DNA of 28,263 nt from a virus: the IMG/VR virus record IMGVR_UViG_3300020183_000363, positions 1 through 28,263 of that record; one strand, 5' to 3'. The notes under the pieces are model-generated. The model was not told where the DNA came from, did not search any database, and saw only the letters and a program-made list of their open reading frames with translations. Shown piece after piece: positions 1,122 to 28,069 of the stretch; within the stretch, counting starts at the first letter, position 1; every line of letters starts with the position of its first letter. The translations under genes and the position numbers were made by a program.

Positions 1122-2150
1122 ATGTCAGTTGTTCTTGTTAAGAATGGGTCGTATCGCGGCATTCCCGTAATTAATACCCAGTTTACTTTAGTTAAGGGTT
1201 TTCAGACAGGCAAGAAGGGTAACTACATTACAGTACGTAATGAGGGTAACTTCCCGATTGCTATTGATGTAGTCAAGATTAAGGTTCAAGATCAGCACGA
1301 CTTTGAGTTTATAGGTGCAAATTTACCTGCAAATGTTAGTCAGTTTATCTCGGCCCCTGTTGTTCAAGAAACTGATGACGAGGCAATGAACCGCATTGCT
1401 ACACGCTTTTCGATTTTGGACGAAATGGCACGTGCTACTACTAATGGCGGCATTCGCGCAATGATCGTTAGTGGTCCCCCAGGTGTTGGTAAAAGTTTTG
1501 GAGTCGAGCAGCAACTTGAAAAGGCAAGTATGTTTGATCGTCTTGCTGGGCGAACACTTAAGTATGAGATTATAAAAGGTGCTATGACAGCACTGGGTCT
1601 CTATGCTACATTGTTCAAGCACAGTGATAAAAATCACGTACTGGTATTTGACGATTGTGACAGTATTCTTATGGACGATCTCTCATTGAATATTCTCAAG
1701 GCTGCGCTTGATAGCGGCAAGCGTCGGCGTATTTACTGGAACAGTGATAGCAGTATGTTACGTCGAGAGGGTATTCCCGACGCATTTGATTTCAATGGAT
1801 CGGTAATCTTTATTTCCAACATAAAGTTTGATCATCTTAAGTCTAAGAAGTTGCAGGATCACTTGGAAGCACTACAGTCGCGCTGTCACTTTTTAGACTT
1901 GACTATTGATACTGAGCGTGACAAGTTATTGCGTATAAAGCAGGTACATCGTGATACTGATGGTGGTCTGTTCCGTGATTATTACTTTGAAACGGACGAA
2001 GGTGATCAGGTCATGAAGTTCATGTGGGACAACAAATCTAAGTTGCGTGAGTTGAGTATGCGTATGGCTCTAAAAATTGCAGATTTGATAAAGATTAGTC
2101 CTACTAACTGGCGTGCGCTTGCTGAGAATACTGTAATGAAGCGGGTCTGA
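1122..2150 (+). CDS. AAA+ family ATPase
   Basis: A 342-residue protein. After a beta-rich N-terminal region (about 1-75) it has an AAA+ core: Walker A GPPGVGKS (118-125), Walker B VLVFDDCD (173-180), a sensor-1-like Asn in VIFISN (about 233) and a likely arginine finger in LQSRC (Arg254). The helical C-terminal part ends in a NWRALAENTVMKRV-type lid. AAA+ proteins couple ATP hydrolysis to remodelling of protein or DNA complexes. Similar stand-alone ATPases occur in many tailed phages, but their target is unknown. The gene has its own promoter and terminator, so it is a monocistronic unit. Its codon use (many CGT, CGC and GGC) looks less AT-biased than the genes that follow. Confidence 0.9.
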   Translation: MSVVLVKNGSYRGIPVINTQFTLVKGFQTGKKGNYITVRNEGNFPIAIDVVKIKVQDQHDFEFIGANLPANVSQFISAPVVQETDDEAMNRIATRFSILDEMARATTNGGIRAMIVSGPPGVGKSFGVEQQLEKASMFDRLAGRTLKYEIIKGAMTALGLYATLFKHSDKNHVLVFDDCDSILMDDLSLNILKAALDSGKRRRIYWNSDSSMLRREGIPDAFDFNGSVIFISNIKFDHLKSKKLQDHLEALQSRCHFLDLTIDTERDKLLRIKQVHRDTDGGLFRDYYFETDEGDQVMKFMWDNKSKLRELSMRMALKIADLIKISPTNWRALAENTVMKRV

Positions 2151-3242: not shown

Positions 3243-3424
3243 GAAAAATTACATGTGAAAAATGTAGTTCAGATTTTATATGTAATGGTTCAGGGTACGA
3301 TTGTTGGTGTTTTGACCAGCCTTATATTAGATTGGATAAAACTGAACAATATACTGATTGTTTATGTGAACAATGTTTGATAGAATTATATAATGAGAGA
3401 AGCAAAGATAATCATAAAGGATGA
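3239..3424 (+). CDS. cysteine-rich CWC-type zinc protein
   Basis: This encodes 61 residues with eight cysteines, spaced CxxC, a single Cys, CWC, and CLCxxC near the end. The order CEKCSSDFIC, then CWCFDQP, then CLCEQCL matches the cysteine-rich CWC family of small bacterial proteins, which probably bind zinc and whose role is not established. Such proteins are normally cellular; finding one inside a phage replication operon suggests acquisition from a host. It starts in an ATGA overlap with the upstream gene, and its last 32 bases overlap the uvsW start, so all three are likely translated together. Confidence 0.75.
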   Translation: MRKITCEKCSSDFICNGSGYDCWCFDQPYIRLDKTEQYTDCLCEQCLIELYNERSKDNHKG

Positions 3425-4850
3425 AGTCAACTGCAAGATAGAAGGTCTTGAGTTAGACTGCCGCAAGGCATTAGTGCGTAAATTTGAACATGAAGTTCCG
3501 GGCGCACGTTACTTACCTGCGGTACGTCTTGGCCGTTGGAACGGCAAGGTAAGTTATTGTAGTCTAGCAGGTAGTACATACATAAATCTTATACCTGATA
3601 TTGTACCCATATTACAAGAATATGATTATGATATTAATCTAGTAGACCTGCGCGAATATCAAACATCTTATACGTTTGAGAAAATCACTGAAAATAGTTT
3701 TAGTAATAAGGTATGGACAAAAGGTCATACACAAGAAGGTGAACCAATCATTCTGCGCGATTATCAGGTAGAGATCATCAATAATTTTTTAAGTAATACA
3801 CAATGCATTCAAGAAGTAGCGACCGGCGCTGGTAAAACAATTATGACTGCTGCTCTATCTAAAAGCGTAGAGTATTATGGGCGTAGTATTGTTATAGTCC
3901 CTAACAAGAGTTTGGTAGTACAAACTGAGGCAGACTATATAAATCTTGGATTAGATGTTGGTGTATACTTCGGTGATAGAAAAGAATACAACAAGAAACA
4001 TACAATCTGTACTTGGCAAAGTCTTAACAACTTATTAAAGAACACAAAAGCGGGCGAAGCAGAAGTAAGTATTAAAGAGTTTATTGAGGATGTAATTTGT
4101 ATCATGGTCGATGAAGTGCATATGGCAAAAGCAGACGCACTAAAGCAATTACTAACCGGCCCTTTCAGTCATATACCTATACGTTGGGGACTGACTGGAA
4201 CTGTGCCTAAAGCTACATATGAGCAAGTTAGTTTGTTAGTCAGTCTTGGATCTGTAATCGGCAAACTTAGTGCTGCGGAACTACAAGAGAAAGGAGTACT
4301 AGCACAATGTCATGTAAATGTGATACAGTTAAAAGATGGGGTAGAGTTTACAAACTATCAAAGCGAATTAAAGCATTTACTTGAAGATGAAAAACGTTTG
4401 GATACTATAGCTAAATTAGTTAGTAAAATTAAAGAGACTGGTAACACGCTTGTACTTGTTGATCGTGTAAATGCAGGGCGCGAATTACAATCACGTATAG
4501 TGGATAGTGTATTCATATCGGGCGAGACAAAACTAATGGAGCGTAAAGAAGAATATGACGAAATTAAGACTAGCAATACTAAAGTTATTGTTGCCACTTA
4601 TGGAGTCGCTGCTGTGGGTATTAATCTCCCTCGCATTTTCAATCTTGTTCTTATTGAGCCCGGTAAGTCATTTATCAGAGTTATCCAATCGATTGGACGC
4701 GGTATTAGAAAAGCGGAAGACAAGGATCACGTAGAAATTTGGGATATTACTAGCGATTGTAAGTTTGCCAAACGTCATCTTACACAACGTAAGGCATATT
4801 ACAAAGAAGCAAAGTATCCATTTAGTCTTGAAAAGCTTGATTACAGATAA
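3393..4850 (+). CDS. uvsW: UvsW-type superfamily 2 helicase
   Basis: A 485-residue protein, close to T4 UvsW (about 500). The N-terminal DNA-binding module shows EVPGARYLP and GRWNGK (35-52), typical of UvsW. The helicase core has Walker A ATGAGKT (143-149), a DEVH box (240-243), motif III LTGT (267-270) and motif VI QSIGRGIRK (432-440). UvsW unwinds R-loops and branched recombination intermediates, turning origin-dependent into recombination-dependent replication and rescuing stalled forks by branch migration. The ATG at 3393 gives the full N-terminal module although it overlaps the CWC gene by 32 bases. No strong Shine-Dalgarno site is seen, so translational coupling is likely. Confidence 0.95.
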   Translation: MREAKIIIKDEVNCKIEGLELDCRKALVRKFEHEVPGARYLPAVRLGRWNGKVSYCSLAGSTYINLIPDIVPILQEYDYDINLVDLREYQTSYTFEKITENSFSNKVWTKGHTQEGEPIILRDYQVEIINNFLSNTQCIQEVATGAGKTIMTAALSKSVEYYGRSIVIVPNKSLVVQTEADYINLGLDVGVYFGDRKEYNKKHTICTWQSLNNLLKNTKAGEAEVSIKEFIEDVICIMVDEVHMAKADALKQLLTGPFSHIPIRWGLTGTVPKATYEQVSLLVSLGSVIGKLSAAELQEKGVLAQCHVNVIQLKDGVEFTNYQSELKHLLEDEKRLDTIAKLVSKIKETGNTLVLVDRVNAGRELQSRIVDSVFISGETKLMERKEEYDEIKTSNTKVIVATYGVAAVGINLPRIFNLVLIEPGKSFIRVIQSIGRGIRKAEDKDHVEIWDITSDCKFAKRHLTQRKAYYKEAKYPFSLEKLDYR

Positions 4851-5572: not shown

Positions 5573-6134
5573 TGAAAAGTTTGCGAATGTAGATTTTGAC
5601 CTCTTCGAGGCATTAGCCGCCATTGATCGAAAAGATTATGGTTATTATGATAACTTAACTACAGAACAAAAGAAAAAGTTTGTCCCATACATGCTTATGA
5701 TTTGGAATAGTTGTATTAAAGGTAGGGCAGACTTACAACGATATTACTTACAAAGTGTAGACTATCATAGTAACCAACACTTACTAAATGAAAATATTAA
5801 CGATCACCCTAAACTTCAGTGGTTGATGCTTTGCGCGGCAAGTCCTGGTTTAGGACAACAATTTCATCAGTGGATACCTCATATTCCTACTAGAGTAAGT
5901 TTACTCAAGGATCACGCAAAAGCTGCTGATATTAAAAATTACTATAAAAAGATTTATCCTAATTCAGATGAAGCTTTGATAGATGAGGCTGCATTGGTAT
6001 ATACATCCGAACATAAAAAGAAAATGTATTTATCTACACAATATCCTGAAATGAAGATATCGGACATTGAAATACTAACACAGTTTGTTTCACAAAATGA
6101 TATAGATGATTATGAAAAACAAAGCGGAAACTAA
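5547..6134 (+). CDS. probable clamp-loader small subunit (gp62-like)
   Basis: A 195-residue helical protein, about the length of T4 gp62 (187). The order of segments resembles gp62: a phenylalanine-led helix with LFEALAAIDRKDYG (19-32), a middle segment KKKFVPYMLMIWNSC, an LNENINDHPKLQWLMLCAASPG segment like the bihelical part before the gp62 RGKRYGKW motif, then FHQWIP. In T4, gp62 joins four gp44 subunits to load the gp45 sliding clamp, and the clamp also serves late transcription. Here the gene is not beside a gp44 gene, and the Arg/Lys-rich RGKR stretch is replaced by GLGQQ, so the call is tentative. It overlaps both neighbours by 26-29 bases. Confidence 0.5.
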   Translation: MYKTKKSVDEKFANVDFDLFEALAAIDRKDYGYYDNLTTEQKKKFVPYMLMIWNSCIKGRADLQRYYLQSVDYHSNQHLLNENINDHPKLQWLMLCAASPGLGQQFHQWIPHIPTRVSLLKDHAKAADIKNYYKKIYPNSDEALIDEAALVYTSEHKKKMYLSTQYPEMKISDIEILTQFVSQNDIDDYEKQSGN

Positions 6135-6807
6135 AACCTATCACTGTGAGTTTTGTGAAAGAGACTTTATACGTGAGGGTAGTTTTCTTAAACATATCTG
6201 TGAAACAAAGAGAAGATATTTGGACCAAGATTATCAAGGAAATCGCATTGGATTCCAAATATGGTTAGATTTCTTTAAAAAGAATAGTCATAGTAAAAAA
6301 CAAAAAACGTATATTGACTTTGCTAAAAATGCATACTATACAGCGTTTGTAAAGTTTGGGAATTACTGTGTAAATGCTAACGTATTAAATATAAAAAGAT
6401 TTTCGGATTATCTTCTTAAGAACAAAATAAGTGTAGATAATTGGGCAAGTGATAAACAGTATACAATTTTTTTAATACAGTATTTGCGTGATGAGGATCC
6501 ATTGGATGCTATAGCACGTAGTATTGAAACTACAATAACTTTAAGTAAAGAAGATAAGATACAAACAAAGGATTGTTTAAGATATGGGAATAAAAACAAA
6601 ATTTGTTATAATATTACAACAGGTAAAATAAGTCCTTGGATGTTGTATCATAGCGAAAGTGGATTAAGTTTTTTACAATCATTAGACCAAACACAACTAA
6701 AGATGGTTTTCGATTACATTGATCCGCAAAAATGGAATATAAAATTTAGACGAGATCAAGAAATATTAGATCAGGTTAAAGACCTATTAAGTGCAGCTGG
6801 GTATTAG
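6106..6807 (+). CDS. zinc-finger protein of unknown function
   Basis: This encodes 233 residues, starting at ATG 6106 or 6112 inside the end of the previous gene. The N-terminus carries one zinc finger of C2HC type: CEFC, then H and C in FLKHIC (residues about 14-32). The rest is helical (YIDFAKNAYYTAFVKFGNYC, then FSDYLLKNKISVDNWASD), with no nuclease or polymerase motif. A single finger on a helical body suggests DNA or RNA binding in replication or transcription. By position between a clamp-loader-like gene and metabolic accessory genes it could be a replication accessory factor. It is not similar to T4 gp59 or gp32 as far as I can see. Confidence 0.7.
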   Translation: MIMKNKAETKTYHCEFCERDFIREGSFLKHICETKRRYLDQDYQGNRIGFQIWLDFFKKNSHSKKQKTYIDFAKNAYYTAFVKFGNYCVNANVLNIKRFSDYLLKNKISVDNWASDKQYTIFLIQYLRDEDPLDAIARSIETTITLSKEDKIQTKDCLRYGNKNKICYNITTGKISPWMLYHSESGLSFLQSLDQTQLKMVFDYIDPQKWNIKFRRDQEILDQVKDLLSAAGY

Positions 6808-7516: not shown

Positions 7517-7787
7517 ACTAGACAGTGAAAAATTTCAAGATTATGATGATGACGATCCTAAACTACAACGTAGATTGTCACGCTGGAAATATTGGAAAAA
7601 TCTAAAGAGATTAAAGCATGATTTTACTAAAGAAACTGGATCAAAGGATCATAAAGAGTTTAAAATATGGCTTGCAAACAAATATGGTTTTAAGCCAATC
7701 GAAACAAATGAGGGTATGATGACTGATGATTTAGATATAGTTGACGAAAAGAAATATGTAGTGTATATTCTAAAGTATGGCCAATGA
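7509..7787 (+). CDS. small charged protein of unknown function
   Basis: This encodes 92 residues from the ATG at 7509; the frame is open 36 bases further up, inside the dioxygenase gene. It begins MSRLDSEKFQDYDDDDP, then has a basic, tryptophan-containing helix region (RLSRWKYWKNLKRLKHDF) and an acidic tail. The charge split suggests binding to a partner protein or nucleic acid. The codons for its N-terminus contain a 23-base stretch found again, base for base, in the late gene at 13293-14399, where it also encodes RLDSEKF. No family is recognised. The next gene overlaps its end by 11 bases. Confidence 0.65.
   Translation: MSRLDSEKFQDYDDDDPKLQRRLSRWKYWKNLKRLKHDFTKETGSKDHKEFKIWLANKYGFKPIETNEGMMTDDLDIVDEKKYVVYILKYGQ
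7513..7535 (+). repeat. copy 1 of a 23-base exact repeat (encodes RLDSEKF)
   Basis: These 23 bases recur exactly at 14026-14048, 6.5 kb away, in the same reading phase, and both copies encode RLDSEKF. The flanking bases differ. In a 28-kb window a chance 23-base match is very unlikely. Confidence 0.85.
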
Positions 7788-8325
7788 TATAATGATTGAC
7801 CTTGAAACGTTAGACACAAGTCCTTATTGTGTTATCCTTACTATTGGCGTCGTTAGGTTTGATCCTTATGGAGAAGGCATTGCTGAAGGTTGGACATTGA
7901 AGCCTACATTAGAAGATCAAACTGAAAAATATAATCGTATTATAAACGACGATACGATACGCTGGTGGAGTACACAAAGTCCAGAAGCATTGGATGAAGC
8001 TATGAGTGATGACGATAGATTACCATTAAAAGATTGTATGGAAATATTATATAAACTAGGATGGAACCGTCGTGCAATATGGAGTCATGGAGCACCATTC
8101 GATGTTGTTGCTTGTGAGACTGCTATGCGTAGCGTATTAACTGATAAACCTAATCCTATACCTTGGCCATTCTATACTGTGCGTGATACACGTACATTGT
8201 TTGAGATTGCTGGAGTAAAATTGCGTGATGGTGGACATATCACAAGTCACAAGGCAGTAGAAGATGCTGAACGCCAGGCTATCGTCGTGCAAGAAGCATA
8301 TAGAAAATTAGGCATGAAGAAATAA
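7777..8325 (+). CDS. dexA: DexA-type 3'-5' exonuclease (DEDDh family)
   Basis: A 182-residue protein with DEDDh exonuclease motifs: Exo I DLET (D8, E10), Exo II FDVVACE (D109) and Exo III HKAVED (H158, D163). TIRWWSTQSPEA (60-71) closely matches the same region of T4 exonuclease A (DexA). T4 DexA degrades single-stranded DNA 3'-5' using two metal ions, and is thought to take part in host DNA breakdown or repair. The protein is somewhat shorter than T4 DexA (about 227). The ATG at 7777 overlaps the previous gene by 11 bases. Confidence 0.9.
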   Translation: MANDIMIDLETLDTSPYCVILTIGVVRFDPYGEGIAEGWTLKPTLEDQTEKYNRIINDDTIRWWSTQSPEALDEAMSDDDRLPLKDCMEILYKLGWNRRAIWSHGAPFDVVACETAMRSVLTDKPNPIPWPFYTVRDTRTLFEIAGVKLRDGGHITSHKAVEDAERQAIVVQEAYRKLGMKK

Positions 8326-8326
8326 T

Positions 8327-8902
8327 ATGATATCAACAGATATTGATATTGATCTGGGAGATAGAGATAAGTTATTGAGTATCATAAAAAATACTCCCGC
8401 TAGCATCATAAAAAATGATGTTTACAAAAAACATCCTACGGGTATATATGTTACAGACATACCATACGATCCACTAAATGAAAGTAGTAGTTTAGACTAT
8501 GAAGAAGCAGAGGCCAGAGGTTATTTCAAATTAGATATATTGAATGTTCATTTATATAATTATGTAAAGAACGAAAATCATTTGCATGACTTAATGCATG
8601 ATCCAGACTGGAATATGCTAAATGATATATCTGTTGTTGAAAAACTTATACACATGGGTAATCACTATAATACGCTTAAAAAGATGCCTGAGCCAGTAAA
8701 TAGCATTCCAAGATTAGCAATGTTTCTTGCAGTAATACGCCCAGGTAAAAAGCATTTAATAGGGTCATCTTGGGAAGAAATAAGTAAATCTATTTGGGAT
8801 AAAGAAGAAGGTACTTATACATTTAAAAAATCACACGCGGTAGCCTATGCTCATCTCGTTGTTGTTAACATGAACTTAATAAAAAATGGTACAATTAATT
8901 AA
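8327..8902 (+). CDS. miniature stand-alone DnaE-like (C-family polymerase) protein
   Basis: A 191-residue protein that condenses the palm and finger signatures of bacterial DNA polymerase III alpha in the right order. DIDIDLGDRDKLL (5-17) matches DnaE PDFDVDF-xxxRDxVI, including two catalytic aspartates. HPTGIYVTDIPYDPL (36-50) matches HAGGVVI...PL. EARGYFKLDILNV (62-74) matches YAGLVKFDFLGL with the third aspartate (D70). LAVIRPGK (134-141) matches LVALFRPGP, and FKKSHAVAYA (166-175) matches FNKSHSAAYA. The PHP, thumb and clamp-binding parts are absent. The motif reading is direct; whether it polymerises, binds primer-template or is a decoy is unknown. It starts one base after dexA and overlaps def by 17 bases. 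Confidence 0.75.
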   Translation: MISTDIDIDLGDRDKLLSIIKNTPASIIKNDVYKKHPTGIYVTDIPYDPLNESSSLDYEEAEARGYFKLDILNVHLYNYVKNENHLHDLMHDPDWNMLNDISVVEKLIHMGNHYNTLKKMPEPVNSIPRLAMFLAVIRPGKKHLIGSSWEEISKSIWDKEEGTYTFKKSHAVAYAHLVVVNMNLIKNGTIN

Positions 8903-9368
8903 AGAAACTGATACTCTGCTTAGGCAAGTTTGTGATCCATACGATTTTGAAGTCGATGGAGATCCTACAGACTTAGTTAAAGAAATGACAAAAATTATGT
9001 TTGAAAATAACGGGATAGGATTAGCAGCTCCACAGGTAGGCGTACTCAAAAGATTGTTCATTATGGGTAATAGTGACAAACTTTTTGTATGCATTAATCC
9101 TAAATTTATTGCAGACGGAGAGTTTTATCGTGATTTAGAAGGATGTTTGAGTTTTCCTAATCTATGGTTGCATGTTAAAAGATTTAAACAAATAGAAGCA
9201 CATTATCAAGACATTAATAGGCAAGTTGTCAAAGCTACTTACGAAGGATTAATTGCTAGAGTGTATCAACACGAATTAGACCATTTAGATGGTGTTTGTT
9301 TTGATACTAGAGTTGGACCAGTAAGTCTAGATTTTGCTAAACAAAAAAGAAAGAAGCAATTAAGATAG
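8886..9368 (+). CDS. def: peptide deformylase
   Basis: A 160-residue enzyme with all three deformylase motifs: GIGLAAPQVG (43-52), EGCLS (85-89, metal-ligand C87) and HELDH (129-133, two metal histidines and the catalytic glutamate). It removes the formyl group from the initiator methionine of new proteins. It lacks the long C-terminal extension of many bacterial enzymes, as is usual for marine phage versions. Phage deformylases are thought to keep processing of phage or host proteins going during infection. The gene starts inside the end of the DnaE-like gene, and its own end overlaps by nine bases a gene on the other strand. Confidence 0.95.
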   Translation: MVQLIKETDTLLRQVCDPYDFEVDGDPTDLVKEMTKIMFENNGIGLAAPQVGVLKRLFIMGNSDKLFVCINPKFIADGEFYRDLEGCLSFPNLWLHVKRFKQIEAHYQDINRQVVKATYEGLIARVYQHELDHLDGVCFDTRVGPVSLDFAKQKRKKQLR

Positions 9369-9740
9369 TCTTTTCACTAACGTAATTGATTTTCTTTTAG
9401 TCCTGCGTTTATTATATTCTGTCATACTGACTACAGGACCATGAACAATATTAAGACTTTTATTATTAAAAGTTCTTAAATATGGTCTAAATAGGGTCCA
9501 TTCTTCTTTAAGAAATATATTTATTGGAATTTGTCTATTACTTTGCCACCACCATATATCACCTAATTCTAAGAACTTTTCTTTTAGTGTAAGATTTACA
9601 ATAGCTCCGTAATCATAGATAGTTGTACAACTATCATCACGATTTTGTACTATTCCAACATAATCTTGGTTGGCGAAACTAAGGACCGTGATGAACGGGT
9701 GATTTTCGCTTAATTTTTTAAAAAACTCTTTGGATATCAT
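9360..9740 (-). CDS. uncharacterised phage protein on the minus strand
   Basis: This encodes 126 residues, starting MISKEFFKKLSENHPFITVLSF. It is beta-rich with an EFLELGDIWWWQSNRQIPINIFL-like core (starting near residue 55) and a basic end (YNKRRTKRKSITLVKRL). The triple Trp followed by a run of hydrophobic residues looks conserved, and I recall similar proteins in marine T4-like phages without a function. The basic tail would fit nucleic-acid binding. It is the only minus-strand gene in the left half of the window. No Shine-Dalgarno site is evident; a late-type promoter lies 16 bases upstream. Confidence 0.75.
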   Translation of the reverse strand: MISKEFFKKLSENHPFITVLSFANQDYVGIVQNRDDSCTTIYDYGAIVNLTLKEKFLELGDIWWWQSNRQIPINIFLKEEWTLFRPYLRTFNNKSLNIVHGPVVSMTEYNKRRTKRKSITLVKRLS

Positions 9741-10670: not shown

Positions 10671-11648
10671 GTGTTTGATATTCTTCAAATAGTTCCAGGC
10701 AAAAAGAAATTAACGCAAAGCGGTTGGCATAGTTTTAACGCTGTGTGCTGCCATTACCGCGGACATAAGGCAGACCGTCGCAGTCGCGGCGGTATTAAAT
10801 TTGACGGAGATAATTGGAGTTATCATTGCTTTAATTGTGATTTTAAGTGTACATTTACGTTAGGAAGAAGCTTTACTAAAAATTTACGTACACTTTTAGA
10901 CTATTGTGGAATAGACAAAGATCAAGTTAATAAGTGGAGCTTTGAAAGTTTACAGCAAAAAGATTTATTATACTATATTAAAATTAAAAAAGAAAAAAAG
11001 AAAATAAAATTTAAAACAACAGTACTACCCGAAGATGCAGAAATAATTACTGATGATGCAACACATAAAATATATTATGAATATTTGAAAAAAAGAAAAA
11101 TGAACATAAATGATTATCCATTTATGTGTACTCCGAACGCTAAAGGACGACAAGCTAATCGGATCATCATACCCTACACTTATGAAAATAAAATAGTGGG
11201 ACACACTAGTAGGTACTTAGATGAACGCACTCCTAAATTCATCAACGACCAACAACAAGGATATGTGTTTGGCATCGACCTACAAAAGATTGATTATGAA
11301 GTCTGTATTGTAGTAGAAGGAATATTTGACGCACTTAGTATAAATGGTTGCGCATTGACGCATAATACAATTAGTTCTGAGCAAGCGGAAATCTTATCAC
11401 AACTTAATAAAAAAATCATTGTTGTACCTGATCAAGACAGCACTGGATTATCCATTTGTGACAAGGCATTAGAATATGGGTTTAATGTAAGTATCCCGAA
11501 TTGGGGAGAAGGTATAAAGGACGTAAATGATGCAGTAATTAAATATGGTAAGGTAGCTACGCTACTAAGTATTTTACAATCTGCAACTAACAGTAAAATT
11601 AAAATAGAAGTACAGAGGAACAAACTTGCTAAAAGACTACAATATTGA
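10671..11648 (+). CDS. DNA primase (gp61-type)
   Basis: A 325-residue DnaG-family primase, close to T4 gp61 (342). The N-terminal zinc-binding region has CCH (26-28), H32 and HCFNC (C53, C56). The TOPRIM core shows VVEGIFDALS (E216, D220) and VVPDQDSTG (D254, D256), followed by GEGIKDVNDAV, which matches the T4 SKDVNDMI segment. The enzyme lays down RNA primers for lagging-strand synthesis and works with the helicase encoded immediately downstream; their reading frames overlap by 23 bases. The start is a GTG with no Shine-Dalgarno site, placed right behind a -10 box. Confidence 0.92.
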   Translation: MFDILQIVPGKKKLTQSGWHSFNAVCCHYRGHKADRRSRGGIKFDGDNWSYHCFNCDFKCTFTLGRSFTKNLRTLLDYCGIDKDQVNKWSFESLQQKDLLYYIKIKKEKKKIKFKTTVLPEDAEIITDDATHKIYYEYLKKRKMNINDYPFMCTPNAKGRQANRIIIPYTYENKIVGHTSRYLDERTPKFINDQQQGYVFGIDLQKIDYEVCIVVEGIFDALSINGCALTHNTISSEQAEILSQLNKKIIVVPDQDSTGLSICDKALEYGFNVSIPNWGEGIKDVNDAVIKYGKVATLLSILQSATNSKIKIEVQRNKLAKRLQY

Positions 11649-13026
11649 TGTTCAAATAGTATTTTTAAGAATGATGGTAACTAACGCTGAGTTATTTACC
11701 CGTGTGCTTAATATTATAAGACCAGAAAATTTTGATAAAAAATTACGACCGGTCGTGTCGTTTTTACTTGATCATAGTAAAAATTATAACGTACTGCCGG
11801 AACCGGTACAAATTAAAGCTACTAGTGGATTAGACATAGATCCTATTGAAGAATTAGATGAGGGACATTATAATTGGTTCCTAGAAGAATTTGAGAGATT
11901 TACACAACGACAAGAACTTGAGAGGGCTATTCTTAAGAGTGCCGATCATCTTGAGAAAGGCGAATATGGTCCTGTAGAGAAACTAATAAAAGATGCTGTC
12001 CAAATTTCTCTACAGCGCGATATGGGTACTGATTATTTTGCTGATCCACGTGCTAGACTTATGCTATTAAAATCTAGCAATGGACAGAACAGCACAGGTT
12101 GGCCATCACTTGATAATAAACTATATGGTGGTTTCAACAGGGGTGAGTTACAAATATTTGCAGGTGGTAGTGGTAGCGGCAAAAGTTTGTTTATGCAGAA
12201 CCTAGCAGTCAACTGGACGCAAGCCGGACTTAATGGTATATACATCACGTTAGAACTTAGTGAAGGTCTATGTAGTATGCGTATCGATGGTATGATGACC
12301 GATACAAGTACCAAAGAAATTTTTAAAGATATTGATAATGTTGAAATGAAAGTCAAGATGATTGCTAAGAAAGCAGGTCAATTGCGTATTAAATATATGC
12401 CTGCACAAAGTACGGTAAATGACATACGTGCTTACTGTAAAGAATTGCAAGTACAGACAGGATTTAGCCTAGATTTCTTATGTGTTGATTACTTAGATTT
12501 GATTATGCCTGTAACAGCTAAAGTAAGCCCAAATGATTTGTTTATTAAAGACAAATATGTATCTGAAGAATTACGTAATCTTGCTAAAGAACTCAATGTA
12601 ATTTTTGTTACTGCAAGTCAGTTAAATCGTAGCGCAGTTGAAGAAATAGAGTTTGATCATAGTCATATCGCAGGTGGCATCAGTAAGATTAATACTGCTG
12701 ACAATGTGTTCGGTATTTTTACAAGTCGCAGTATGAAAGAACAGGGACGTTATCAAATACAGTTGATGAAAACACGTAGTAGTTCAGGAGTAGGTCAGAA
12801 AATTGAGCTTGCATTTGATAAAGACACGCTTAGAATAACCGATGACGGGGAGCAAAATAAGCCTGATAGACCTCAGCCCAGCGCATTGGATATAATGAGC
12901 CAAATTAAAAATACTGCTCAAACGTCCACAGTTCAGGATGGACAACAGGAAGTACGTAAAATAGTTGCAGATACGCAGGGTTCTAAGCTAAATCAGATGC
13001 TTAATCAAATGCGTAATAACCAATAA
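11626..13026 (+). CDS. replicative DNA helicase (gp41/DnaB-type)
   Basis: A 466-residue DnaB-family helicase (T4 gp41 is 475). It has a helical N-terminal domain (1-130), Walker A GGSGSGKS (180-187), Walker B FLCVDYLDL (284-292) and FVTASQLNRS (327-336), which carries the conserved motif III glutamine. The C-terminal tail (about 400-466) is Gln/Asn-rich and polar. It forms a hexamer that unwinds the fork 5'-3' and stimulates the primase. The start is a TTG at 11626 preceded by AGAGGAAC at good spacing; the later ATGs (residues 16-17) would remove the first helix. It overlaps the primase gene. Confidence 0.93.
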   Translation: MLKDYNIDVQIVFLRMMVTNAELFTRVLNIIRPENFDKKLRPVVSFLLDHSKNYNVLPEPVQIKATSGLDIDPIEELDEGHYNWFLEEFERFTQRQELERAILKSADHLEKGEYGPVEKLIKDAVQISLQRDMGTDYFADPRARLMLLKSSNGQNSTGWPSLDNKLYGGFNRGELQIFAGGSGSGKSLFMQNLAVNWTQAGLNGIYITLELSEGLCSMRIDGMMTDTSTKEIFKDIDNVEMKVKMIAKKAGQLRIKYMPAQSTVNDIRAYCKELQVQTGFSLDFLCVDYLDLIMPVTAKVSPNDLFIKDKYVSEELRNLAKELNVIFVTASQLNRSAVEEIEFDHSHIAGGISKINTADNVFGIFTSRSMKEQGRYQIQLMKTRSSSGVGQKIELAFDKDTLRITDDGEQNKPDRPQPSALDIMSQIKNTAQTSTVQDGQQEVRKIVADTQGSKLNQMLNQMRNNQ

Positions 13027-25184: not shown

Positions 25185-25542
25185 ATTTCCTGTAATTGAA
25201 CTTGTAGATCGTTATTGTATTGCCAAATTAAAATACAATAAAATAGGAACTAATAAAGAAGAATTAGATTTTTATTTAGATCAAATTAAAGAATTACCTT
25301 TAGACTTGATAGCTATCCAACTTGAAAGACTGTATGAGGTCCATAGGCAAGTTTGGGAAGTTGAAGATGAATTTAAGAAAAAGAAAGTTGATACAAAATA
25401 CGAATTAGAAGAAATAGGTCGTAGAGCCTTATATGTTAGGGATATAATGGAAGAACGTTATCATCTTAAAAATGAAATGGCTGCAATACTTAATGACCCA
25501 GTAAAAGAAAGAAAAGATTATGGTGGAGCATTTAAGTTATAG
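25177..25542 (+). CDS. small helical protein of sugar-cluster type
   Basis: This encodes 121 residues, all-helical and highly charged (LVDRYCIAKLKYNKIGTNKE, then LERLYEVHRQVWEVEDEFKK and ALYVRDIMEERYHLKNEMA). The pattern of a leading DR-x-(T/I)-xxLK helix, VHRQ-WxxED and a final N/E-x-R helix resembles small uncharacterised proteins that accompany polysaccharide gene clusters in bacteria (of the DUF6165 type). I cannot confirm the match. It overlaps the upstream gene by eight bases and, in its last 25 bases, the end of the opposing glycosyltransferase-like gene. Confidence 0.7.
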   Translation: MYKFPVIELVDRYCIAKLKYNKIGTNKEELDFYLDQIKELPLDLIAIQLERLYEVHRQVWEVEDEFKKKKVDTKYELEEIGRRALYVRDIMEERYHLKNEMAAILNDPVKERKDYGGAFKL

Positions 25543-26828
25543 GGCAAATCAAATACAAACTGCTCTCTTTTTTTAAGATTTTCAAAATTATGATCACAAA
25601 TGCCTTTGGCAAAGTGTAGAAAGTTTTTTAATTCAACTTGATTTAAATTACAAAGTCTTTCAGCTTCATTTACTATTTTAAAAAGTCTAGTAGCATCATC
25701 CTCTTCATTATCATAACTTTCATCTATATATGGACTAAAAGTTTTGTAACCTAACGAGTGTAAAATTTTTAAAAAATGTTTAGGGGCTGTTACCAAAAAC
25801 GGATGTTTATATAAAAAACACCTAAATATTTTTTCACTAAATAAACGTCCAACTATATCATAAAATTCATTTTCATTATATGGAAATGCTTTTTCATATA
25901 TGAACGGAAAGTTTGTCTCTGTTACTAAGCTAAAGTACGTATCGTTGAACCAAATATTATGTTCTGGTAGTATTTGCGCGAGACACTTTTCACTTTGATT
26001 ATATGTAGTATCTAATAAAATATTATCAATTTTACTTAAAACTGTATAATTGTCTTGTAAGATTTTAATAATCTCTTCGTTTTTATTAAACCTTATTAAT
26101 AATTCACGTAAAACTGAAGCTCCGTCACTTGGTCCACCACTATCTTTAATATTATAACTTACGTATCCATCTTTTAATAAGTTTTTAGCTGCAAGTAAAA
26201 ATACAATAGCTGCTCTGTGTTGACGAAAAAAGCCATTTAAACACAAATACTTTTTATTATAAGATTTTAATTGAAAATCAAATTGTTGTATTTGGACAAA
26301 TTCTTTATGAGCTCCGTCCAAATAGTTTCTAAGATGAGTTGACTGATATTTAGCTCCTAATTCAAATTCTAAAGTAACTCTTGTTTTTATAGCTGGCAAA
26401 TTCAATTTTTTACTATACCAATCTACAGCTTTGTGTATGTCAAAACTTTCACTACTTAAGTAAATGTTTTTTGCAGGTACTCTATCCCTACCGATTAAAT
26501 TTACATATATGCTTTCAATAATTTGATGGTAACCATGCCCTGACATATGAAGGGCTAACTTGACATCGCCATTTCTTATTGGTTCTATCCATTTATCTTC
26601 AACAAACTCTTCTAAGGTAACCTGATCAAATGTTTCATGCCCTAAAAATTCAACGTAGTATAGTTTTTCATCGTTTATATCTAGATAATCACATAAGTTA
26701 GGCACATTTAATATTCCAATAGGATTTTTGGGTACATGATAATATTTTATTCCTATCTTTTTAAATCCGGGATACGTATGTATGTAATTAAATTTTTTAA
26801 TTTCTTGATTAAAAAGGTTAACGATCAT
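25518..26828 (-). CDS. glycosyltransferase-like protein, paralogue 1
   Basis: A 436-residue protein with no signal peptide. Conserved blocks shared with the next gene are SGHGYHQIIESIY, IYLSSESFD, KKYLCLNGFFRQHRAA (about 201-216), ILPEHNIWFNDTYFSLVTET and, near the end, SEKIFRCFLYKHPFLV, LGYKTF and IDESYDNE-DDATRL. The SEK-fR-----HPFl, LGYKTF and DESYD blocks resemble the C-terminal, nucleotide-binding half of fucosyltransferase- or exostosin-like proteins of marine phages and bacteria, where glutamate/lysine of SEK would contact the donor. The function is inferred, and the donor and acceptor are unknown. It starts in an ATGA overlap with the upstream paralogue, so the two form one minus-strand operon. 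Confidence 0.7.
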   Translation of the reverse strand: MIVNLFNQEIKKFNYIHTYPGFKKIGIKYYHVPKNPIGILNVPNLCDYLDINDEKLYYVEFLGHETFDQVTLEEFVEDKWIEPIRNGDVKLALHMSGHGYHQIIESIYVNLIGRDRVPAKNIYLSSESFDIHKAVDWYSKKLNLPAIKTRVTLEFELGAKYQSTHLRNYLDGAHKEFVQIQQFDFQLKSYNKKYLCLNGFFRQHRAAIVFLLAAKNLLKDGYVSYNIKDSGGPSDGASVLRELLIRFNKNEEIIKILQDNYTVLSKIDNILLDTTYNQSEKCLAQILPEHNIWFNDTYFSLVTETNFPFIYEKAFPYNENEFYDIVGRLFSEKIFRCFLYKHPFLVTAPKHFLKILHSLGYKTFSPYIDESYDNEEDDATRLFKIVNEAERLCNLNQVELKNFLHFAKGICDHNFENLKKREQFVFDLPYNLNAPP

Positions 26829-28069
26829 ATTTTTAATTCTCTACAAAAAAATTGATGTTTGGTCTTTAACATTTCAAAATTATGTTCACAAATATATTTT
26901 GCTTGATTTATAAAGTTGTAAACTTCTTCATCACTTAAATTACAAAGTCTTTCAATTTCTTTTGCTATTTTATAAATTCTAATACTATTATCAGTTTCAT
27001 CATCATAACTTTCATCTATCAAGCTATCAAAAGTTTTGTATCCTAATTCCTTTAATAATTTTAAACTATGTGGGTTGCACACAATTAAAAAAGGATGTTT
27101 AAAATAAATGGTTCTAAAAATTTTTTCACTAAGAAGTCGTCCTACTCTGTTAGGTAGTTCTGGTGTATGATGAATTGGGTTAAAGTCAGGGTAGTTTGTT
27201 TCAGTAACTACGCTAAAAAAGGTATCATTAAAATATGTATCATGTTCAGGCATAACAACTGCTAGGTTTTCTCCGTGGTTAAATGGTCTATCCAATAAAA
27301 TTGATTTAAGTTTTAGTAAATTATCTTTATTATTATCTAAAATACTGTTTACTTCAGGTATTTGACTAAAAAATTCTTTCATAAAATTATATGTGTCTTC
27401 AGGCTCAGCACCGCCTTCTTTAATATTAAAACTAATCAAACCTTTATCCAACAAGTTTAATCCTGATAACATAGTTATAAGTGCTGCTCTATGTCGTCTA
27501 TAATATCCATTTAAACATAAAAACTTTTTGTCATAATGCTTCAATTCAAAATTGTTAAATTTAACCGCTAGATTTTTAGCATAATGACTGTAGTAACCTT
27601 CAAATTCTGTTGTAAGATAATAGTTAACCATAGGAAGATTTAATTTTTTGCTTATAAAATATCCAGCGGTGTGCATGTCTGCACTTTCACTCGATATTAT
27701 TATATTATCAAATGGCAAATTAAATTTCAGTATAACTTCTTGGTATATATTTTCTATAGCTTCATGTTGTCCATGACCTGTATTGTGCAGAACTAAATTA
27801 CATTCATTTCGTTTTATTTTATCTAAAACATACTTAGGTATGAAATCACTTAAATTATAAGTAGTAAAACAGTACGGTCCAAAAAATTCTATGTACCATG
27901 CATCATTATTTGCTAAATTGCTTTGCATATTACTATTAGATAAAGTATATTCAAAATAGTCAGTAAAATTCCATGGAAATTCAGGCTTATAACTTTTTTC
28001 CCTTACAAACGATGTTGGACTTTGTCCCATGTCCCATAATGTATAATAGTAGCTTTTATTTAAAATCAT
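26825..28069 (-). CDS. glycosyltransferase-like protein, paralogue 2
   Basis: A 414-residue protein, clearly paralogous to its downstream neighbour over the full length. TGHGQHEAIENIY, IIISSESADMH, KKFLCLNGYYRRHRAA, VMPEHDTYFNDTFFSVVTET, SEKIFRTIYFKHPFLI, LGYKTF, IDESYDDE and ERLCNL align in order. The N-terminal 60 residues diverge most. The pair probably arose by tandem duplication and may now act on different acceptors or linkages. It is first in the minus-strand operon, with a late-type element four bases before its start and no Shine-Dalgarno site. Confidence 0.7.
   Translation of the reverse strand: MILNKSYYYTLWDMGQSPTSFVREKSYKPEFPWNFTDYFEYTLSNSNMQSNLANNDAWYIEFFGPYCFTTYNLSDFIPKYVLDKIKRNECNLVLHNTGHGQHEAIENIYQEVILKFNLPFDNIIISSESADMHTAGYFISKKLNLPMVNYYLTTEFEGYYSHYAKNLAVKFNNFELKHYDKKFLCLNGYYRRHRAALITMLSGLNLLDKGLISFNIKEGGAEPEDTYNFMKEFFSQIPEVNSILDNNKDNLLKLKSILLDRPFNHGENLAVVMPEHDTYFNDTFFSVVTETNYPDFNPIHHTPELPNRVGRLLSEKIFRTIYFKHPFLIVCNPHSLKLLKELGYKTFDSLIDESYDDETDNSIRIYKIAKEIERLCNLSDEEVYNFINQAKYICEHNFEMLKTKHQFFCRELKI

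Follow-up and report, generated by a model that had tools for sequence, protein, structure and literature searches.

A probable metal-binding and fingers half of a split minimal C-family DNA polymerase in an uncultured phage

Introduction

Among bacterial members of the C family of DNA polymerases, the PHP and (HhH)2 domains are nearly universal; the metal ligands of the active site (D401, D403 and D555 in Escherichia coli numbering) are conserved across the whole family, and D405 is absolutely conserved among the DnaE groups (PMC3919608). Another residue, H760, is invariant in Pol III alpha and has been proposed to act as a steric gate against ribonucleotides (PMC8485763).

In phages, a Pol III alpha subunit was listed in Atu_ph07 by Attai et al. 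2018 (PMC6102473). Passages of the later study by Iyer et al. 2021 (PMC7824862) describe how the group 2.2 jumbo phages, Atu_ph07 among them, possess both a family B polymerase and a “phage-specific minimal version” of Pol III alpha, the latter consisting of an N-terminal NTP-binding protein and a C-terminal protein binding Mg2+ and the template. Both are encoded by distant genes and were suggested to reconstitute one enzyme, and the same passages propose that the split minimal form resembles ancestral Pol III. Experimental work on a split minimal Pol III was not found in a literature search that covered few subscription journals. As this family is described in those passages, the protein considered here is a further, uncultured member of it. 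What is new is the residue register, the steric gate, the exact fission point, the linkage between the N-terminal half and the clamp loader, and the spread of the system in environmental phages.

The locus and its neighbours

The window, i.e., the whole stretch of 28,263 nucleotides of viral DNA that was analysed, carries the following genes of relevance:

3393..4850 (+): UvsW-like helicase, upstream part of a conserved replication block
7777..8325 (+): DexA-like 3'-5' exonuclease, directly upstream of the C-half
8327..8902 (+): predicted C-terminal half (C-half) of a split minimal Pol III alpha, 191 aa, ATG start
8886..9368 (+): peptide deformylase (Def), directly downstream of the C-half
9360..9740 (-): convergent small gene, phrog_11637, function unassigned, homologue in 95 of 98 loci
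10671-11648 (+): primase, downstream part of the same replication block
11626-13026 (+): DnaB/gp41-like helicase, downstream part of the same replication block

The C-half starts one base past the stop of the DexA-like gene (8325) and its end overlaps the start of Def (8886), so that the position between dexA and def given in the initial annotation is borne out by the genes at 7777-8325 and 8886-9368; the five peptides quoted there are likewise all present at the residues assigned to them in the translation of 8327-8902. The window also holds an AAA+ ATPase (phrog_1250) weakly similar to a clamp loader at 1122-2150 (+), and two adjoining proteins of 436 and 414 aa, apparent paralogues by eye, at 25518-26828 and 26825-28069 (-).

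When homologous loci are compared (98 of them, many truncated), the C-half is found within a block containing the UvsW-like helicase (62 loci), phrog_11637 (95), the primase (79), the DnaB/gp41-like helicase (72) and a few small genes. A DexA homologue occurs in 54 of the 98 loci and Def in 27; thus, neither is a fixed partner of the C-half. The phrog_11637 gene, which has no Pfam match, is its most constant neighbour, and a phrog_11058 protein with a zinc-finger-like CxxC...HxxC N-terminus, located at 6106-6807 (+) in the window, is present in 77 of these loci.

Family identity and structure of the C-half

Neither Pfam nor NCBIfam recognises the protein, and phmmer and profile searches against PDB sequences gave no relevant match. 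Its best family match is phrog_11778, annotated “DNA polymerase” (E 2.3e-59, residues 3-188), and three full-length phage DnaE families also match it, weakly, at the SHAxAY end. DnaE is reached from the C-half only by profile-profile and fold comparison: the hhalign score of its profile against DnaE is 53, while 100 column shuffles give at most 26.

The AlphaFold2 model, built from a 60-sequence alignment, has a mean pLDDT of 92.2 and a pTM of 0.79, and places D7 and D9 on one strand (residues 6-10) with D5 just ahead of it, and D70 on another strand (68-73). In a Foldseek search with this model, the ten best PDB matches are all Pol III alpha (from Thermus aquaticus, Mycobacterium tuberculosis, E. 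coli and others), with probabilities up to 1.00, E-values of 0.002-0.5 and TM scores of 0.36-0.53 over the query, and the remaining matches are noise. Such modest E-values and TM scores count against a split polymerase. A chance likeness to DnaE is nevertheless ruled out by the column shuffles, the confident model and the Foldseek result taken together, and the initial proposal that C-family (Pol III alpha/DnaE) motifs occur here in DnaE order is backed by the same evidence and by phrog_11778.

Residue register and invariant motifs

Profile alignment places the conserved motifs of the C-half on E. coli DnaE as follows:

8339..8353 (+): DIDID, residues 5-9, equivalent to D401, D403 and D405, directly after the fission point
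8432..8443 (+): HxxG, residues 36-39, equivalent to H511-G514 by conservation and profile alignment
8528..8542 (+): KLDIL, residues 68-72, equivalent to K553 and D555 (third catalytic aspartate)
8738..8749 (+): RPGK, residues 138-141, equivalent to R639-P642
8822..8848 (+): FKKSHAVAY, residues 166-174, equivalent to the F756-Y764 region, with H170 equivalent to H760

The segment TDIDID of the C-half aligns with E. coli PDFDVD (PDFDVDF being residues 400-406), hhalign concurs, and in Atu_ph07 the motif is spelled PDIDIDF; comparison of the latter with PDFDVDF fixes the register as D5 = D401, D7 = D403 and D9 = D405. The catalytic pair originally assigned to D7 and D9 is thus shifted by two residues, the metal-binding pair being D5 and D7. 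The assignment of D70 as the third catalytic aspartate holds, as K68-x-D70 corresponds to K553-x-D555.

Conservation is strict: all 90 homologues share D5, D7, D9, K68, D70, R138, K141, H170 and Y174, as well as I8, L72, P139 and F166. These residues bear out the earlier view of a reduced DnaE active-site protein under strong selection, and the loss of D7, D9 or D70, which had been named as a result that would speak against it, is seen in none of the 90.

A second protein carries the missing half of the palm

The C-half lacks the GRGS motif of the C-family palm, which is carried instead by a second phage protein of ~170 aa (N-half), in which it is invariant. Pfam PF07733 (DNA_pol3_alpha) detects this protein above cut-off in eight of eight complete relatives, over profile positions of about 16-98, and all 54 members of the N-half alignment match it; a representative belongs, by a near full-length match, to phrog_11127, which is again annotated “DNA polymerase”. 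When modelled alone, as was also done for the C-half, the N-half reaches a pLDDT of 90.9, falling locally to 75 at GRGSS, and its top Foldseek matches are Pol III alpha. Since the GRGS half is absent from the C-half and present in a second protein, the C-half is best regarded as half of a two-subunit enzyme and not as the stand-alone core initially described; the NTP-binding half of the palm sits in a separate, conserved protein in each of the eight complete relatives.

Within the 28-kb fragment that constitutes the window, PF07733 gave no match. Of 19 environmental contigs, 10 carry the N-half, and the other nine are mostly short fragments. One contig whose C-half is 69% identical to that of the window (G001) carries both an N-half and a family B polymerase, and the phage from which the window derives therefore most likely has both. 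The family B polymerase is present in eight of eight complete relatives, which confirms for these relatives the earlier expectation of such an enzyme, and in 4 of 10 partial contigs, G001 included. The same contig encodes near 54.8-56.5 kb (L121:1504-3180) another C-family polymerase, unsplit, lacking a PHP and about 560 aa long, with a GS motif, PDIDLDF, KIDIL and an SHA-like motif, which coexists with the split form and the family B polymerase; a 37.6% identical relative of it occurs in the 484-kb uncultured phage LR756508.

The two halves meet at a defined position. The N-half aligns with E. coli DnaE residues 319-393 and ends there: in most of 78 environmental frames the stop follows E-F-L-K or E-F-L-R, 35 residues past the start of the GS motif. 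The C-half begins a few residues ahead of DxDxD. These two ends, one at about residue 393 and the other just before DxDxD, indicate fission at one fixed point, which, judged from the alignments, separates the GS-motif segment from the catalytic strand. A joint profile of N-half and C-half is collinear with E. coli DnaE 231-780 (E 1.1e-13). A fused protein was sought in the open frames upstream of 79 C-halves, none of which exceeds 46 residues.

The genes of both halves lie tens to hundreds of kilobases apart in the eight complete relatives, and the fetched flanks of 80 N-half loci contain no C-half; neither in these relatives nor in the 10 environmental contigs with an N-half, which are long ones, do the two come within 10 kb of each other. 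This counts against a pair, as obligate partners are often linked. The N-half has a constant context of its own: in 67 of the 80 loci the gene for the sliding-clamp loader follows it on the same strand at a distance of 0.7-6.8 kb, the clamp loader having been named by PHROGs in one N-half locus. In one locus (L143:10366-12881), the N-half is followed by a phrog_14844 gene (found in 77 of the 80 loci), a GroES-like/head-morphogenesis gene (76 of 80) and then the clamp loader.

Parts lost relative to bacterial DnaE

Considered together, the two halves lack large parts of E. coli DnaE. The PHP domain is missing, none of 18 relatives' records giving a match to it. Ahead of HxxG, the stretch from D405 to H511 is about 100 residues shorter, the gap running from E. 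coli 406 to 507 and taking in most of the thumb, and about 90 residues of the fingers are missing after RPG, including the LRRAMGKK helix (near 709-710). The C-half ends ahead of the E. coli HhH region, everything past about residue 780 (HhH, OB) being absent. A candidate clamp motif at the C-terminus of some homologues, QLNLL, was discarded on the ground that it corresponds in the alignment to the DnaE helix following SHSAAYA. With the LRRAMGKK helix, the HhH and a recognised clamp motif all missing, processive synthesis is unlikely.

Spread

By tblastn, the C-half is encoded in 90 phage records at 38-48% identity, and the matches listed are all large phages or fragments (Atu_ph07, Phosso, SCTP-2, the PA5oct group and the RaK2/121Q/CBB/GAP32 group). 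An alignment-based scan found it in at least 455 IMG/VR stretches. Among 84,980 cellular genomes only eight contigs give a match; all belong to metagenome-assembled genomes, labelled as scattered taxa such as Rickettsiales, Elusimicrobia, Natrialbaceae and Pacearchaeota, among others (L213-L219); these are probably phage contigs binned with cells.

Proposed function and alternatives

The C-half is probably that half of a minimal, two-subunit C-family DNA polymerase which contains the metal-binding site and the fingers. It brings the three aspartates, the lysine equivalent to K553 and the steric-gate histidine, and the N-half brings GRGSS. The two proteins would assemble via a shared palm sheet, with the dNTP triphosphate held by the N-half and the two-metal site and deoxyribose selection being provided by the C-half, and the resulting dimer would add dNTPs to a primer or a gap. 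Such an enzyme, devoid of the PHP and the tandem HhH and of most of its thumb and fingers, should bind DNA weakly and be distributive unless helped by the phage replisome. Being distributive alone, it would most likely serve beside the family B replicase in gap filling, in repair, in the synthesis of one strand or, with assistance, in synthesis at the fork. Tentatively, one may go further and picture the pair as the smallest C-family enzyme, a functional DNA polymerase with ~360 residues in all, which draws the nucleotide-binding and metal-binding sides of its active site from two separately regulated replication operons and synthesises DNA at the fork alongside the family B replicase, perhaps together with the phage clamp loader.

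The same losses can be read differently. The Pol beta superfamily is functionally diverse, and a pair that has given up the DNA-binding thumb and HhH might be an active nucleotidyltransferase with a task other than DNA synthesis, e.g., the modification of an RNA, a nucleotide or a protein. This is unlikely, however, because the pair retains the equivalent of the H760 steric gate and the SHAxAY fingers motif, both used by Pol III to select dNTPs, and the genes of both halves reside in replication clusters.

It is quite improbable that the C-half acts by itself, whether as a small terminal transferase, as was initially suggested, or as a nucleotidyltransferase that needs no template. The model does fold confidently without a partner, and all three catalytic aspartates are in this chain. 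However, C-family and Pol beta-like enzymes carry their triphosphate-binding GS motif in the same fold, and here it sits in another protein in eight of eight complete relatives.

The further suggestion of a catalytically dead or regulatory decoy, directed at the clamp, clamp loader or exonuclease of the host Pol III, can draw on the resemblance of the pair to the host polymerase and on the phage owning a family B replicase, but it is very improbable. A decoy would need no invariant active site, yet all 90 homologues keep the metal ligands and the steric gate unchanged, and the phages retain a matching N-half; in addition, the PHP is missing and the clamp- and tau-binding parts of bacterial alpha fall outside the aligned region.

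Should the polymerase formed by the two halves prove active, it would show how little of the bacterial replicase catalysis needs, and that two chains can share one active site, split at a fixed point. Many giant phages would then use two polymerases side by side, one bacterial-type and one archaeal/eukaryotic-type, a point of relevance to the proposal of Iyer et al. regarding ancestral Pol III. As both proteins are small, the question is directly testable.

Comparison with known systems

When compared with bacterial DnaE and PolC, the split pair shows the palm motifs GRGS, DxDxD and KxD and the fingers motifs RPG and SHAxAY in the same order, and the active-site aspartates D401, D403 and D555 are kept (D5, D7 and D70). 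In contrast, the bacterial enzymes are single chains of about 1,100 aa, whereas the pair comprises about 360 aa in two chains, with GRGS not in the same chain as the aspartates; there is no PHP, the thumb is largely gone, the fingers are cut, and the HhH, OB and tau-binding domains are absent. The pair may be the smallest polymerase of its class.

A C-family polymerase in two open reading frames is also found in Cellulophaga phage phiST (gp044/gp045, L126:2304-5904), although that enzyme is full-size, its genes are adjacent and its breakpoint is elsewhere. The PHROGs families of the C-half and the N-half, phrog_11778 and phrog_11127, share one annotation, and the split is unnamed there. Finally, the split Pol III of Iyer et al. 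2021, likened here by its description in passages of the main text and not by family accessions, does not differ in kind from the protein of the window; those passages contain no residue register, fission point or gene context of the N-half, to which the present analysis adds all three.
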